This document shows, piece after piece, positions 14,900-19,655 of a stretch of DNA of 64,000 nt. The DNA lies in the NCBI RefSeq assembly GCF_029633915.1, contig NZ_CP091092.1, positions 1,674,001 through 1,738,000 on the forward strand. The letters run 5' to 3'. How positions within the stretch are numbered: the stretch's first letter is position 1; each line of letters opens with the position of its first letter. The translations under genes and the position numbers were made by a program. A model generated the notes under the pieces. That model had not been told where the DNA came from, made no database searches, and saw nothing but the letters and a program-made list of their open reading frames with translations. This DNA comes from Methanomicrobium antiquum. GTDB taxonomy: Archaea; Halobacteriota; Methanomicrobia; Methanomicrobiales; Methanomicrobiaceae.

Positions 14900-15322
14900 A
14901 TGGAAGAGCTTCCAGAATATCAGATATGTCCCAAGTGCGGCAAAAGAAGTACTCCTTATATGGAGAATTGCTGGAATTGCGGCCAGTCCTTTTTTGTTGA
15001 GACAACGACCATAATCAACACAGATGAAGCAAAAGAAACAGAAGAAATTGTTCCCGGAGCAGAAGCAGATTTTGAGCCTGAAAAAATTTCACCATGCAGA
15101 TTAGATGAGATGAATTTTACAGACAGAATGTTTGCATACAGCCTTCTTTTTAGTGGAGAAATGGTTATTGAATTCTGCAACTGTGATATCTGTAAAGAAG
15201 CCTTTAAAGAATCTCTCGCATTCTTCAAAGAGTCAGATCCTGAAGCAGAAGAAATCAAAAAAGAGGCTGAAGATACAGAAATTGAAGGAATGATTCTTGA
15301 TTTATCCGGACTGGGTCTTTAA
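14900..15322 (+). CDS. Zinc-ribbon protein with acidic C-terminal region
   Basis: The 140-residue protein opens with a double CxxC zinc ribbon (ICPKCGKRS, then CWNCGQSF). A linker and an acidic domain follow, with a second cysteine group CNCDIC around residues 95-100. Glu and Asp make up much of the C-terminal half. No membrane segment is seen. Zinc ribbons of this type usually mediate protein or nucleic acid contacts; no specific role can be given. No ribosome-binding site precedes the ATG, so the transcript may be leaderless. Confidence 0.7.
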   Translation: MEELPEYQICPKCGKRSTPYMENCWNCGQSFFVETTTIINTDEAKETEEIVPGAEADFEPEKISPCRLDEMNFTDRMFAYSLLFSGEMVIEFCNCDICKEAFKESLAFFKESDPEAEEIKKEAEDTEIEGMILDLSGLGL

Positions 15323-15466: not shown

Positions 15467-16213
15467 TCATTCACCATCGGCAATAATCCACTGATAGAGG
15501 AATGCCGCAAGCACTGCACCAATAACCGGCCCTGCAACATATATCCAGTAAACTGAAAGCACATTTGGCCCTCCAAGCAGGAGATCTGCCAACATCGGAC
15601 CAAAAGAACGGGCAGGATTTATCGATGCACCGGAGATGTTGCCGATTGTAGTGATGATTCCGGCAACGGCAAGTCCGATTGCAAGACCGGCAAATCCAGG
15701 CGGTGCCTTTTCATCGACTGCAACACCCATAATGACCATCATAAGAAGGAATGTCCCGATTATCTCTGCAAGGAGAGCTTCCCAGACAGTTATGCCGACA
15801 AAAGGAGCGGTTGCACCAAGTCCGCCTATAGCAATCGCTTCGGGACCGACAGACAATGCAAACAGAATGCTTCCCAAAAGTGCCCCGATAAGCTGTGCGA
15901 TTACATATACAACCATATCTTTTGCAGGGAAGAGTCCTTTCGCCCATAAAGCAATTGATACTGCCGGATTTATGTGTGCTCCAGATACCCTTCCAAAGGT
16001 ATAGATAACAGCCATCACAGTAATTCCAAAAGCAAGGCCGATTGCGAGCCAGTCGCCCAGACCACCTAATAAACCGATGCCCATATTGAAGGTATTTGGA
16101 GTTTCCTCCCCATCAACCAGCATAAGAGTCATCGCCGCCGCACCTGCACCAAAGTAGACTAAAAGCATAGTGCCTATTGCTTCGGCGGTAAACCTCTTTC
16201 CAAGTGATATCAT
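15467..16213 (-). CDS. MIP-family channel (archaeal aquaporin AqpM-like)
   Basis: This is a six-helix membrane channel for water or small neutral solutes. Both NPA loops are present: HINPAVSIA in the first half and SINPARSFGP in the second. The product is about 248 residues from the ATG at 16213. The GTG at 16222 is unlikely because AAGGA lies only one base before it, whereas it is ten bases from the ATG. The first AEAIGT helix follows directly. It begins 5 bp after the DUF2180 stop, so it is probably translated from the same message as DUF2180 and DUF2193. Archaeal AqpM channels are reported to pass water, some glycerol and perhaps dissolved gases; the solute here is unknown. Confidence 0.9.
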   Translation of the reverse strand: MISLGKRFTAEAIGTMLLVYFGAGAAAMTLMLVDGEETPNTFNMGIGLLGGLGDWLAIGLAFGITVMAVIYTFGRVSGAHINPAVSIALWAKGLFPAKDMVVYVIAQLIGALLGSILFALSVGPEAIAIGGLGATAPFVGITVWEALLAEIIGTFLLMMVIMGVAVDEKAPPGFAGLAIGLAVAGIITTIGNISGASINPARSFGPMLADLLLGGPNVLSVYWIYVAGPVIGAVLAAFLYQWIIADGE

Positions 16214-16218
16214 CAAAA

Positions 16219-16428
16219 TCACGTCCTTTTTATTGATTCAGCACACTCCGGGCAGAGTATTCTTGGAAGGGTTTTGGATACTTTTTTTGCCGGGAATGGA
16301 TAGCCTCCTTCCCAGATTTCCTGATCTTCCCTTATGGCATGTTCCATACAAAGCCCCATTCCACAGACAATACAGATTGCTACAGCATCAGTATCTTTTC
16401 CCATTTGTGCACAGACATAACATTTCAT
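16219..16428 (-). CDS. DUF2180 small cysteine-rich protein
   Basis: From the ATG at 16428 the product is 69 residues, starting MKCYVCAQMGKDTDAVAIC. Eight cysteines in paired positions (CYVC, CIVCGMGLC, CPEC), with a His after the third pair, suggest two zinc sites of ribbon or treble-clef type. The ATG has GGAGG eight bases upstream; the TTG at 16443 overlaps that ribosome site and is rejected. The family is known from archaea, with no assigned function. It sits between DUF2193 (35 bp upstream) and the channel gene (5 bp downstream), so a common task is likely. Confidence 0.8.
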   Translation of the reverse strand: MKCYVCAQMGKDTDAVAICIVCGMGLCMEHAIREDQEIWEGGYPFPAKKVSKTLPRILCPECAESIKRT

Positions 16429-16463
16429 CGTGAAAACCTCCAAAAAATTTTTGGATTTTTTTT

Positions 16464-17960
16464 TCAGACTGCTTCCCTGTACTGGCAGTATTCATGGCGG
16501 AAATCCACAAGAGATGCAGATGCACAGTTCTTGCAGGCACGGACAGGTGCCGCGGCAGTCTTTTTGTCAAGAGCAACTATGTTTGTCATCATTGTTGCAG
16601 TTACAGGCTCGGATGTAAGCAGGCACGGGTAGTCAGCAAGACTCATCATTGCCGCAAATCTGACTGTAATTGCACATGCCGGATATACATAGCGCTGTGG
16701 GTTTTGTATGACATCATGTTTGTCAACAGGTGACAGATCAACCGGAAGTCCGCTGACAGTTGGTTTAAGTGCATTTCCAGAGCCGTTTTTAACTTTCCTT
16801 GCCCTGTCCATTATGCCCCATCCACGATATACCATGTCCATGAAGTCACAGTTGTGAAGCTCTGCTGCAGCTCCTCTTGTTGGATTTAACTGAACGAAGT
16901 TGTGGTACCTTTTTGTGAGAAGCTCTACAACTGTCGGACCGTTGAATCCGTCAAGTTCAAGGATGTATTCCGCCGCGGCGGCTGTTGCTCCGGTTGCAAC
17001 AGATGTCACCTGATATACGCTCTTAAACTTTGATACGTTCTGGCGCAGAGTATTTTCCATTACATCAGTTACTGCCTCTATTATGCCCATGACCATGTCG
17101 TCTTTGCACATGTTGTATGTGGACTGTGCAATGTGATGGGCAATATCTCCAACACAGTACGCAGGAACAGTAACAATGTTTGCATAATGTACTTCGTCAC
17201 TGATGGCCGCTTTTACAACAGGTTCCATCTTCTTCCTGTATTCGGCCATGTATTTTCTGACGTCAAAAGAACTGTGATTGTTTGCATCCATAAGCTCTGC
17301 CTGTGCAGAAACAGGACTTTCATAAATGTGTTTTAACTCATTTATCTCGCCTTTAACAGCATCTGCAAGAGTCATTTCTTTTTCAACACTTTTTGCAAAC
17401 ACATCACCAACACCATATGATGTATTCATTCCCCAGGATTTAGCGGCAAGAAGAGCTTTTTTGTGATCTGCCGGAATATCTGTTTTTGTTAATATCTGGT
17501 TTACAACATTGCTTGTACTTCCGGGAATCATTGCAAAGTCAACAACACATGTAGGCCCGTAAAAGCCTGCATATCTGCGGGCAGATTCACGTCCAATCAG
17601 TGCCTCAGACTTTCCGATCTGCTTGATGAATTTATCAACGCTCTTTTTAAATGCAGGGTCCTCATCATACAGAATTTCAAGAACAACAGGTGTCTGGTAG
17701 TGCTCTACAAATGGATCGTCTTCGGGCTTTACAAAGTCTGTTAATGATGTAAGAGTATTGAAGTGGGCATTGACTGATTCTACATGAAGGTCGATTACAG
17801 TTTTTGACTGCCCTTCTCCGGCCTTCATCTTATTCACCGCATCTACGTACGGTTTTCCGTCTTTTACTTTAAAATCGGTTCCTCTCTTCTTCTGGAGGAT
17901 GGAGACATCAGCACGCTGGGCCCCCATTGCTTCGTCTATCATTTTTCCATAAATTGTCAT
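16464..17960 (-). CDS. DUF2193 protein, methanogen-restricted
   Basis: This 498-residue soluble protein belongs, as far as I can recognise, to DUF2193, found mostly in methanogens and without known function. Notable parts are FYGPTCVVDFAMIPGS (about residue 154), YCVGDIAHHIAQSTYN with paired histidines, and a C-terminal cysteine cluster CKNCASASLVDFRHEYC that could bind a metal. There is no signal peptide or membrane segment. ATG start with GGAGG eight bases upstream, and TTATAAATATC about 45 bp upstream as a likely TATA box. The strong ribosome site and regular codon use suggest high expression. It is the first gene of a three-gene operon with DUF2180 and a channel. Confidence 0.8.
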   Translation of the reverse strand: MTIYGKMIDEAMGAQRADVSILQKKRGTDFKVKDGKPYVDAVNKMKAGEGQSKTVIDLHVESVNAHFNTLTSLTDFVKPEDDPFVEHYQTPVVLEILYDEDPAFKKSVDKFIKQIGKSEALIGRESARRYAGFYGPTCVVDFAMIPGSTSNVVNQILTKTDIPADHKKALLAAKSWGMNTSYGVGDVFAKSVEKEMTLADAVKGEINELKHIYESPVSAQAELMDANNHSSFDVRKYMAEYRKKMEPVVKAAISDEVHYANIVTVPAYCVGDIAHHIAQSTYNMCKDDMVMGIIEAVTDVMENTLRQNVSKFKSVYQVTSVATGATAAAAEYILELDGFNGPTVVELLTKRYHNFVQLNPTRGAAAELHNCDFMDMVYRGWGIMDRARKVKNGSGNALKPTVSGLPVDLSPVDKHDVIQNPQRYVYPACAITVRFAAMMSLADYPCLLTSEPVTATMMTNIVALDKKTAAAPVRACKNCASASLVDFRHEYCQYREAV

Positions 17961-18701
17961 AGGTTATACCTCCTATGGATGTGTCATCATATATTCTGAA
18001 GATATTTATAATTAACTCACACAAGGATTTATCAGCTTTTTTGAAGAGATTAAACCCCAAATAGAGTTTAATTTGTTAAGCTTACATAGAAACAGCAATG
18101 AGAAACTGCATATCAAAATGGTGCAGATACAAAAACAAATAAAGCCACAATAATGAATATAAAATCAGTTTGGTCTAAATTAACAACCTGATATAATAGA
18201 ACCTTATTTAATGTATGAATCCTGTCCCTGAATTTATGAAATCCCAAATAATTCAGGAAATTTTAAAAAAAAACAGGCATTATGTTGCAATATTGCATTT
18301 TAATCATAGTAAATCTGTCACGGGGGGGTGTGACAGAACACTATAATTTCTGGTTTGTAATTTCTGGTCTGGTCAAATTATCCCTAACAATAAGGATATT
18401 GACGAAATTAATAGAAAATGACAGATCTCTCATCTGTCTAATATGAGTTTATTAGAATTATATTAATAAGAATTTGCTAAACTTAAATTTAAGTGATTAT
18501 TAATCACATAAACCATCATATTTTGAAGAATATCCAAATTAGATCAAAATTTGTGAAAAATATTTTCTCAGAATCCTTTGTCCCGGGATCATTTACTGAA
18601 AACAATTATTTCAAAATCAGATTGATATACTCCTTCATAAAAAAACCGAGCATTTGCTCCTGATTTTTAGGAATTATTAACCCGGATTGTATCGGGATTA
18701 T
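17961..18701. other. 741-bp intergenic region without a gene
   Basis: No convincing reading frame is seen. It contains the promoter side of the DUF2193 operon, a short stem ATTAAAC/GTTTAAT (about 18048-18073), a G7 run (18321-18327) and a near-repeat AATTTCTGGT that occurs twice around 18343-18368. The rest is AT-rich. Confidence 0.6.
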
Positions 18702-19655
18702 TCAGATGCCTTTTAAATACATTGATTCACTCTTAGGATTTTTCAGTAAAAGCCTGTAATTATTTATTGCAAGAACAGGATTTCTGGTGGCATAACAATA
18801 GGCACATCCGTGAATACAGGTATTATATTGTCCTGTATCTGTTGAAGGAATGCACCCGCAAAGAGACCTTTGACTTTTATCCTTCCCACTGTTTTCTTCA
18901 AGATATTTTAACATAAAAGAATCATCTGAACAGATCTCCCGTATCAGATTTGGGTCAATGCATCTTCCTTTGGCTATTTTATATTTCAGAAGAGAAATAT
19001 CTTCACTGCATGCAGACAAACCAAGATTCCACTTTTTATTAAGGCTGGAAAGACCGGTTGCAAACTCAGTTATTTCACTTTTCTCAAACTCCCGGATACC
19101 AGAAAATCCAAATTTTTTTAAGTTTTTTTCAACTGATTTATAATTATCAAAAAAACTTATGACAAGCCTTTTTGTATAATCTGAGATTTCATCACCTGTT
19201 TTTTCAATTCGCAACAAAAGATCTTTTAAGGCTATTTTACCAGATAATATAAGTGGATCAGATCGCCAGACAACCTTTTCTTTCCCAATAATATCAGACA
19301 AATTTTTAAAGGTCTCAATTCTGTCTTTAAGCGGTAAAACATTCTTCTCATATCCTTCACGTGAATAATCATTTAAAGTGTACTGAAAGTAATATCTGAT
19401 TCCCAGACTGTCAAAAAAAGGGAGATGCTTAATAATAGGTTTTGGGTTTTTAGTCCAGAAAACTATGAATTTTGTATCACAAAAATTGATTTTATAAGGC
19501 CTGTTGTTATATGGATTAAATTTTATAAGATATCCTTCTTTTATCCGGTTTACAAACCAGTCCGAATAAAATGCCGGAATATCTGTTGCACGGCTTGCTG
19601 AAACAATCACCGGATTGAGCTCTTTTATAGATGAATTTGCTGAATTATTGATCAT
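18702..19655 (-). CDS. DUF1848 family protein
   Basis: The 317-residue protein begins with the family pattern SASRATDIPAFYSDWF and has FVFWTKNP-like FIVFWTKNPKP. The C-terminus carries the conserved cysteine series CGCIPSTDTGQYNTCIHGCAYCYATRNP, whose CxxxCxYCYA spacing suggests a Fe-S or radical-SAM-like cluster near the end rather than the beginning of the chain. DUF1848 proteins are widespread in bacteria and archaea and have no assigned reaction. It stands alone, divergent in context from the sepS operon, with AT-rich DNA on both sides. Confidence 0.85.
   Translation of the reverse strand: MINNSANSSIKELNPVIVSASRATDIPAFYSDWFVNRIKEGYLIKFNPYNNRPYKINFCDTKFIVFWTKNPKPIIKHLPFFDSLGIRYYFQYTLNDYSREGYEKNVLPLKDRIETFKNLSDIIGKEKVVWRSDPLILSGKIALKDLLLRIEKTGDEISDYTKRLVISFFDNYKSVEKNLKKFGFSGIREFEKSEITEFATGLSSLNKKWNLGLSACSEDISLLKYKIAKGRCIDPNLIREICSDDSFMLKYLEENSGKDKSQRSLCGCIPSTDTGQYNTCIHGCAYCYATRNPVLAINNYRLLLKNPKSESMYLKGI

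Follow-up and report, generated by a model that had tools for sequence, protein, structure and literature searches.

In a 64,000-nucleotide stretch of the Methanomicrobium antiquum genome (GCF_029633915.1, NZ_CP091092.1, positions 1,674,001–1,738,000; hereafter the window), three genes on the minus strand (17960–15467) encode, in this order, a DUF2193 protein, a DUF2180 protein and an AqpM-type channel of the MIP family, with gaps of 35 and 5 bp. The linkage of DUF2193 to a MIP channel is far beyond chance in two genome draws, and the coupling of the channel to its soluble partner is strongly supported. We tentatively propose that the operon encodes a channel together with a cytosolic partner linked to one-carbon (C1) metabolism.

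Conservation of the DUF2193–channel unit

A first draw of 294 genomes from the phylum of the window was searched with PF09947, PF09959 and PF00230, and DUF2193 genes scoring >800 bits were taken as main type. A MIP channel gene follows on the same strand in 79 of the 81 main-type genes, with DUF2180 in between in 64 (G276 was tallied as lacking DUF2180; a weak match, 2.6e-8, is present there and its position was not listed). The exceptions are G033, a genome with no MIP match, and G369, where no channel is found in the remaining 852 bp of the contig. Among 80 named loci, the channel was present at 76, DUF2180 at 75 and both at 74; two of the four loci that lack the channel lie at a contig end (L105 and L106) and two do not (L080 and L089).

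The second draw, at phylum level around a Methanobrevibacter genome, contained DUF2193 in 82 of 151 genomes, and 31 loci (3 + 28, mostly the best-scoring) were read. The channel was found at 30 of them and DUF2180 as well at 12, and the remaining locus (L233) stops at a contig edge. From these counts, the core unit is DUF2193 plus the channel, and DUF2180 is accessory. An earlier reading of the DNA made from its letters only (the sequence-only reading) had proposed that the two soluble proteins are coupled to the channel, and the gene order conserved in both draws strongly supports this; it had named as a refutation that the three genes be unlinked in nearly all other genomes, and linkage was found instead (79/81, 76/80 and 30/31). 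Among other neighbours of the operon, the most recurrent families reach 12 of 96 loci, and those with a fixed place occur in Methanoculleus-like loci (judged so by apparent kinship).

Two loci keep DUF2180 and the channel with DUF2193 reduced to a remnant (L200:6415–6537) or absent (L198); therefore the partner can go first. At L093:7594–9512, from Methanobrevibacter cuticularis, DUF2193 is followed by two consecutive MIP genes, the second with the filter FLGR.

The DUF2193 protein had been described as methanogen-restricted, which does not hold: the operon is also present in the family labelled f9, where no McrA match was found in 20 of the 21 genomes having main-type DUF2193, and the dsrA cut-off was passed by 12 of the 24 genomes searched. 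The G247 channel, encoded beside DUF2193 and DUF2180, equals the Archaeoglobus fulgidus AqpM of 3NE2 at 244 of 245 aligned residues, the first residue being the one that differs. From the McrA and dsrA results and the 3NE2 match we conclude that f9 most probably represents the Archaeoglobaceae; an assignment to the Methanobacteriaceae was rejected on the same grounds. We likewise conclude, from sequence identity, that the crystallised 3NE2 AqpM very probably comes from a DUF2193–DUF2180–channel operon. The channels at L212 and L214 closely resemble the M. marburgensis AqpM of known structure.

The features of the operon in the window are as follows.

16464..17960, minus strand: first gene of the operon, DUF2193 protein of 498 aa, predicted all-helical (open reading frame; PF09959; AlphaFold2, AF2)
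16485..16535, minus strand: codons of the DUF2193 C-terminal cluster C476-x2-C479-x9-H489-x2-C492 (residue conservation)
16219..16428, minus strand: DUF2180 protein of 69 aa, 7 Cys + 1 His, predicted FYVE/RIM-like two-zinc cross-brace finger (PF09947; AF2; VIA)
15467..16213, minus strand: AqpM-type MIP channel, two NPA motifs, filter F-I-A-R (PF00230; PDB matches)
17968..17974, minus strand: ribosome site AGGAGGT of DUF2193 (sequence reading)
16436..16441, minus strand: ribosome site GGAGGT of DUF2180 (sequence reading)
16224..16230, minus strand: weak ribosome site AAAAGGA of the channel gene, within the 3′ end of DUF2180, 10 bases before the ATG (sequence reading)
18003..18013, minus strand: TATA-box-like stretch ∼45 bases before the DUF2193 ATG, a possible archaeal promoter (sequence reading)

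The three minus-strand genes, their order, gaps and protein lengths (498 and 69 aa, then a MIP channel) agree with the sequence-only reading. Its coordinates, 16213–17960, span DUF2193 and DUF2180 only, the channel gene being 15467–16213, and the strong ribosome sites it claimed are present for the two soluble proteins and not for the channel, which has only AAAAGGA. By profile search, the window genome has one match each for the DUF2193, DUF2180 and MIP families.

The channel and its selectivity filter

The window channel matches PF00230 above the cut-off (E 3.4e-47), carries its NPA motifs at open reading frame positions 83 and 200, and has the solved AqpM proteins as its best PDB matches (3NE2, 5.4e-95; 2EVU, 3.2e-93; next match, 1.4e-29). 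Its filter, F-I-A-R, aligns to F62, I187, S196 and R202 of AqpM and belongs to the same Phe-Ile-small-Arg class; the third position is Ala in the window channel and Ser in both solved proteins (2EVU/2F2B and 3NE2). Structures of the archaeal aquaporin AqpM have been solved, and its physiological role is not agreed (PMC3287591, PMC6912568); the accessible portions of the AqpM literature mention neither DUF2193 nor DUF2180.

The filter is conserved with the linkage. F-[IV]-[SAGT]-R is found in each of the 157 distinct linked channels that were counted (FIAR 69, FISR 66, FIGR 18, FVSR 3 and FITR 1), a count that takes in the L200 channel beside the DUF2193 remnant. Among 31 unlinked channels, nine have F-I-A/G-R (six from f10, two from f14, and L253), one FLGR, ten F-H-x-R and 11 other filters; His occupies the second position in 12 of the 31, and T, S or C comes first with Ile second in seven. 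L253 has an F-I-A/G-R filter, yet the tree groups it with the His-filter channels. Channels of <215 residues or <60 bits, L269 and L270 included, were omitted from both the filter count and the tree.

DUF2193 is paired with more than one channel lineage. At L183 and L272 it lies beside a different MIP subfamily; the two linked channels have F at the first filter position, and the seven unlinked relatives compared have T, S or C there. The L112 and L119 channels are likewise divergent but linked. A tree was made of 70 linked channels chosen at random from the 157, the 31 unlinked channels and one channel that has DUF2180 only. It requires 6 changes of the linked label, although it warns of long branches, so that the placements of L183 and L112 are unsure and the number of exchanges is uncertain. 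We read this pattern as DUF2193 having probably exchanged channel partners under constraint on the filter.

The two soluble proteins

The window DUF2193 matches PF09959 over residues 2–498 of 498 (901 bits, E 2e-271). Its AF2 model, built from 74 sequences, is all-helical, with a mean predicted local distance difference test score (pLDDT) of 83.2, a predicted TM-score of 0.86 and a low-confidence C-terminal tail. Across 162 main copies and ten divergent paralogues, the latter 34–51% identical to the window protein, 61 window positions are shared by ≥97% of the main copies and by 10/10 paralogues. These include H66, E86, E125, R128, W176, H275, H276, D287, R351, H369, D372, D375, C446 and E451, as well as C476, C479 and C492 of the tail. 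In the 74 sequences the three tail cysteines are invariant and H489 nearly so, and 170 of 173 DUF2193 sequences, paralogues included, carry a looser CxxC...[HC]xxC within their final 60 residues. Metal binding by the tail is plausible on this residue pattern.

DxHxxG is the corrinoid (cobalamin) motif. It is absent from the window DUF2193 and present in 1 of 173 sequences, and corrinoid binding was rejected on that ground. An anti-phage link was also rejected, as neither DUF2193 nor DUF2180 was matched by PADLOC at E 0.01. NCBIfam has no name for either family, and the only paper found that names DUF2193 concerns Methanococcus voltae (PMC9431491).

DUF2180 of the window matches PF09947 over positions 1–67 of 68 (E 2e-38, 130.8 bits). 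The sequence-only reading gave it 69 residues, which is correct, and eight cysteines; there are seven, and the eighth ligand is His30. The ligands (Cys 3, 6, 19, 22, 27, 59 and 62, and His30) are invariant in 52 sequences, with the spacing C-x2-C-x12-C-x2-C-x4-C-x2-H-x28-C-x2-C in 52/52, a cross-brace two-zinc pattern; metal binding is thus plausible. The AF2 model (pLDDT 89.8) has as its best VIA row the RIM2 zinc finger 2a20 (Z 5.2, root-mean-square deviation (rmsd) 2.3 over 49 residues), and another RIM finger and one FYVE domain are further top rows. These scores are weak, with ribosomal rows close below (Z 4.5), and Foldseek is weak as well, placing ribosomal eS26 first (E 0.3) and FYVE/RIM-type fingers at E 0.4. 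RxHHCR is the basic phosphoinositide motif of FYVE fingers, and a motif of this type is found in 0 of 52 DUF2180 sequences. We therefore predict a FYVE/RIM-like cross-brace finger at the level of fold only.

Possible function of the operon

GlpF–GlpK, AmtB–GlnK and FocA–PflB each pair a small-solute channel with a co-encoded soluble protein by which the solute is used, trapped or gated. The DUF2193 operon too comprises a channel and a soluble partner, here from genomic linkage alone, and the partner families differ from DUF2193 and DUF2180 as far as they are annotated. The chemistry of the operon is inferred. AqpM would pass a very small neutral solute across the membrane, and DUF2193 would be the soluble partner that binds or acts on that solute, perhaps as an enzyme and perhaps touching the channel itself; DUF2180 would be an accessory two-zinc adaptor, which the operons of some lineages lack. 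For the solute, a C1 compound or CO2 entering or leaving the tetrahydromethanopterin (H4MPT) pathway would be most likely, and the window copy would be linked to C1 metabolism in this way. Sulfide, CO2 or another small neutral molecule had been suggested from the sequence: sulfide is weakened, as AqpM is stated to have been shown not to be an H2S transporter (PMC3287591), and CO2 or another small neutral solute is possible.

This C1-linked reading, which we favour tentatively, is supported by the linkage, the F-[IV]-[SAGT]-R filter, the pairing with a different MIP subfamily at L183 and L272, the 61 kept positions, neighbours of the MtrH-like and mer type, and expression in M. thermophilum. 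The first draw contained 15 divergent DUF2193 paralogues (575–686 bits), of which f9 contributes 12, and an MtrH-like gene lies upstream on the same strand at 13 of the 15 loci (not at L188 or L280); three of these neighbours were checked as PF02007. Tandem DUF2180 genes were compared with mer in 39 f8 genomes: in 35 they are divergent from mer at a distance of up to ∼5 kb, which in 30 of these is no more than 2 kb; in the remaining genomes mer is on another contig (three) or far away (G150). Two f30 genomes with tandem DUF2180 stand outside this count and have mer on another contig. DUF2180 transcripts are reported to go down when H2/CO2 is replaced and up on resupply (PMC10560149); the abstract of that paper names the organism Methanobacterium thermophilum, and the taxonomy papers cited there suggest a Methanoculleus.

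Several observations weigh against this reading. None of the 15 paralogues has a channel or DUF2180 beside it, and the single MtrH match of the window genome is far from the operon; because of these two facts, the C1 link of the operon is by association only, which we count against it. The control genome Methanosarcina acetivorans has DUF2193 and DUF2180 matches and no MIP match, which speaks against an obligate pair, as do eight AqpM-type channels without DUF2193 (six from f10, two from f14); L080, L089 and G033 have DUF2193 without a nearby channel. The expression test was confounded, volatile fatty acids having been added when H2/CO2 was removed, and histone and Hsp20 genes are reported to have moved with DUF2180 while methanogenesis genes did not (PMC10560149). 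No credible fold relative of DUF2193 appeared among the Foldseek and VIA matches listed (Foldseek best E 0.29; VIA re-alignment best Z 5.0 at rmsd 5.6), and no sequence relative was found in the PDB by single sequence, profile matches being E 0.4 or worse.

A further possible clue to the process is family f10, which has AqpM-type channels without DUF2193, a divergent McrA and, in most of its genomes, no Mer match. The family appears ANME-1-like, and its pattern could be explained by kinship alone.

A water channel regulated or gated by DUF2193 and DUF2180 during osmotic or pressure adaptation, with no small-molecule chemistry, is possible and in our view somewhat unlikely. In Methanocalculus sp. 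1H1Hc7 at 25 MPa, the AqpM transcript is reported to rise from 2.17 to 9.19 normalised reads per kilobase per million (RPKM), ∼fourfold (PMC12727201). This rise agrees with a role under pressure and equally with CO2 limitation, the reading given in that paper. A gene for an MscS-type mechanosensitive channel lies near DUF2193, upstream and on the opposite strand, in L178 and L181, and a FYVE/RIM-like finger, if the model is right, would suit a protein–protein adaptor. The linked filter, however, is of the hydrophobic AqpM type, reported to be weakly water-conducting (PMC6912568); the 61 kept positions, many of them polar, in such divergent copies would resemble an active site; the paralogue beside MtrH-like genes adjoins no channel; and in M. 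acetivorans DUF2193 occurs although the genome gives no MIP match.

It is rather doubtful that DUF2193 represents a new all-helical, H4MPT-linked class of C1 enzyme, with one branch paired with an AqpM-type channel and the other with MtrH-like methyltransferases. AqpM and its replacements would then supply or remove the small neutral C1 substrate of DUF2193, and AqpM would serve archaeal C1 metabolism as a channel for metabolites rather than for water. The MtrH-like gene upstream of the paralogue recalls the MtrH/MtgA/CmuB-type corrinoid–H4MPT/tetrahydrofolate (H4F) methyltransferases; in contrast, DUF2193 is predicted to be all-helical and is without DxHxxG, and no MtrH-like gene is part of the operon in the window. 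Both this reading and the favoured one are weakened by the M. acetivorans control and by the confounding in the expression data.

A role in oxidative or redox stress, with AqpM as a channel for H2O2 and the Cys-rich proteins as sensors or scavengers of this peroxide, is unlikely. The tandem DUF2180 genes of f8 (Methanosarcinaceae-like) have AhpD-like, flavoprotein and multihaem cytochrome genes close by, a rubrerythrin-type gene is found in 3 of 9 clustered tandem loci (one of the three confirmed by Pfam), and the reported movement of DUF2180 with Hsp20 and histone genes (PMC10560149) would agree. These redox neighbours belong to unlinked tandem DUF2180, however; none recurs beside the channel operon across distant lineages, and the eight DUF2180 ligand positions show zinc-type spacing.

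Handling of iron–sulfur (Fe-S) or sulfide, as proposed for the M. voltae DUF2193, is quite improbable. Mvol_0354 is reported at higher abundance on FeS2, with Fe-S ligation proposed for the CX2CX6DX2(H/C)X2C at its C terminus (PMC9431491), but the His/Cys exchange at the third tail ligand fits zinc at least equally, and H2S transport by AqpM is denied as noted above (PMC3287591). An old operon of three functionally uncoupled genes, and nothing more, is very improbable: L198 and L200 keep DUF2180 and the channel with DUF2193 lost, and L080, L089 and M. acetivorans keep DUF2193 without the channel, but the order is held in two draws and several families, and DUF2193 pairs with other channel lineages.

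The DUF2193 and DUF2180 families and the AqpM channel are already known. A conserved channel–partner unit was not found in the literature searched (a single open collection); nor were the pairing with more than one channel lineage and the MtrH-like/mer neighbourhood link, and no Methanothermobacter locus tags were found there. In methanogens and Archaeoglobaceae alike, most AqpM-type channels are encoded together with a single uncharacterised protein, which gives a direct genetic handle on the cargo of the channel, and two orphan families are tied to the methylene/methyl-H4MPT branch via separate neighbourhoods.

The loci where an MtrH-like gene precedes the divergent DUF2193 paralogue, in most cases directly adjoining it (L189–L197, L279 and L281–L283), belong to Archaeoglobaceae, f30 and f31; the two genes form a separate, uncharacterised pair. 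In two of them (L196:124–7021 and L197:1154–6491), the MtrH-like gene, an aldehyde ferredoxin oxidoreductase (AOR), the DUF2193 paralogue and a Mer-type reductase are clustered, in L196 additionally with DUF2284 and MtaA-type genes; by gene content, this cluster may belong to an unknown C1 pathway. Tandem DUF2180 genes occur at L169–L176 and L186; the f8 loci (L169–L176) are near multihaem cytochrome and flavoprotein genes, and most are also near AhpD-like, mer and FrhB-like genes.

In the window, a 140-aa protein with an N-terminal zinc-ribbon-like stretch (14900–15322, plus strand; Pfam matches all below the cut-off) is convergent with the channel gene, and a DUF1848 protein (18702–19655, minus strand) is encoded on the operon strand ∼740 bp upstream.

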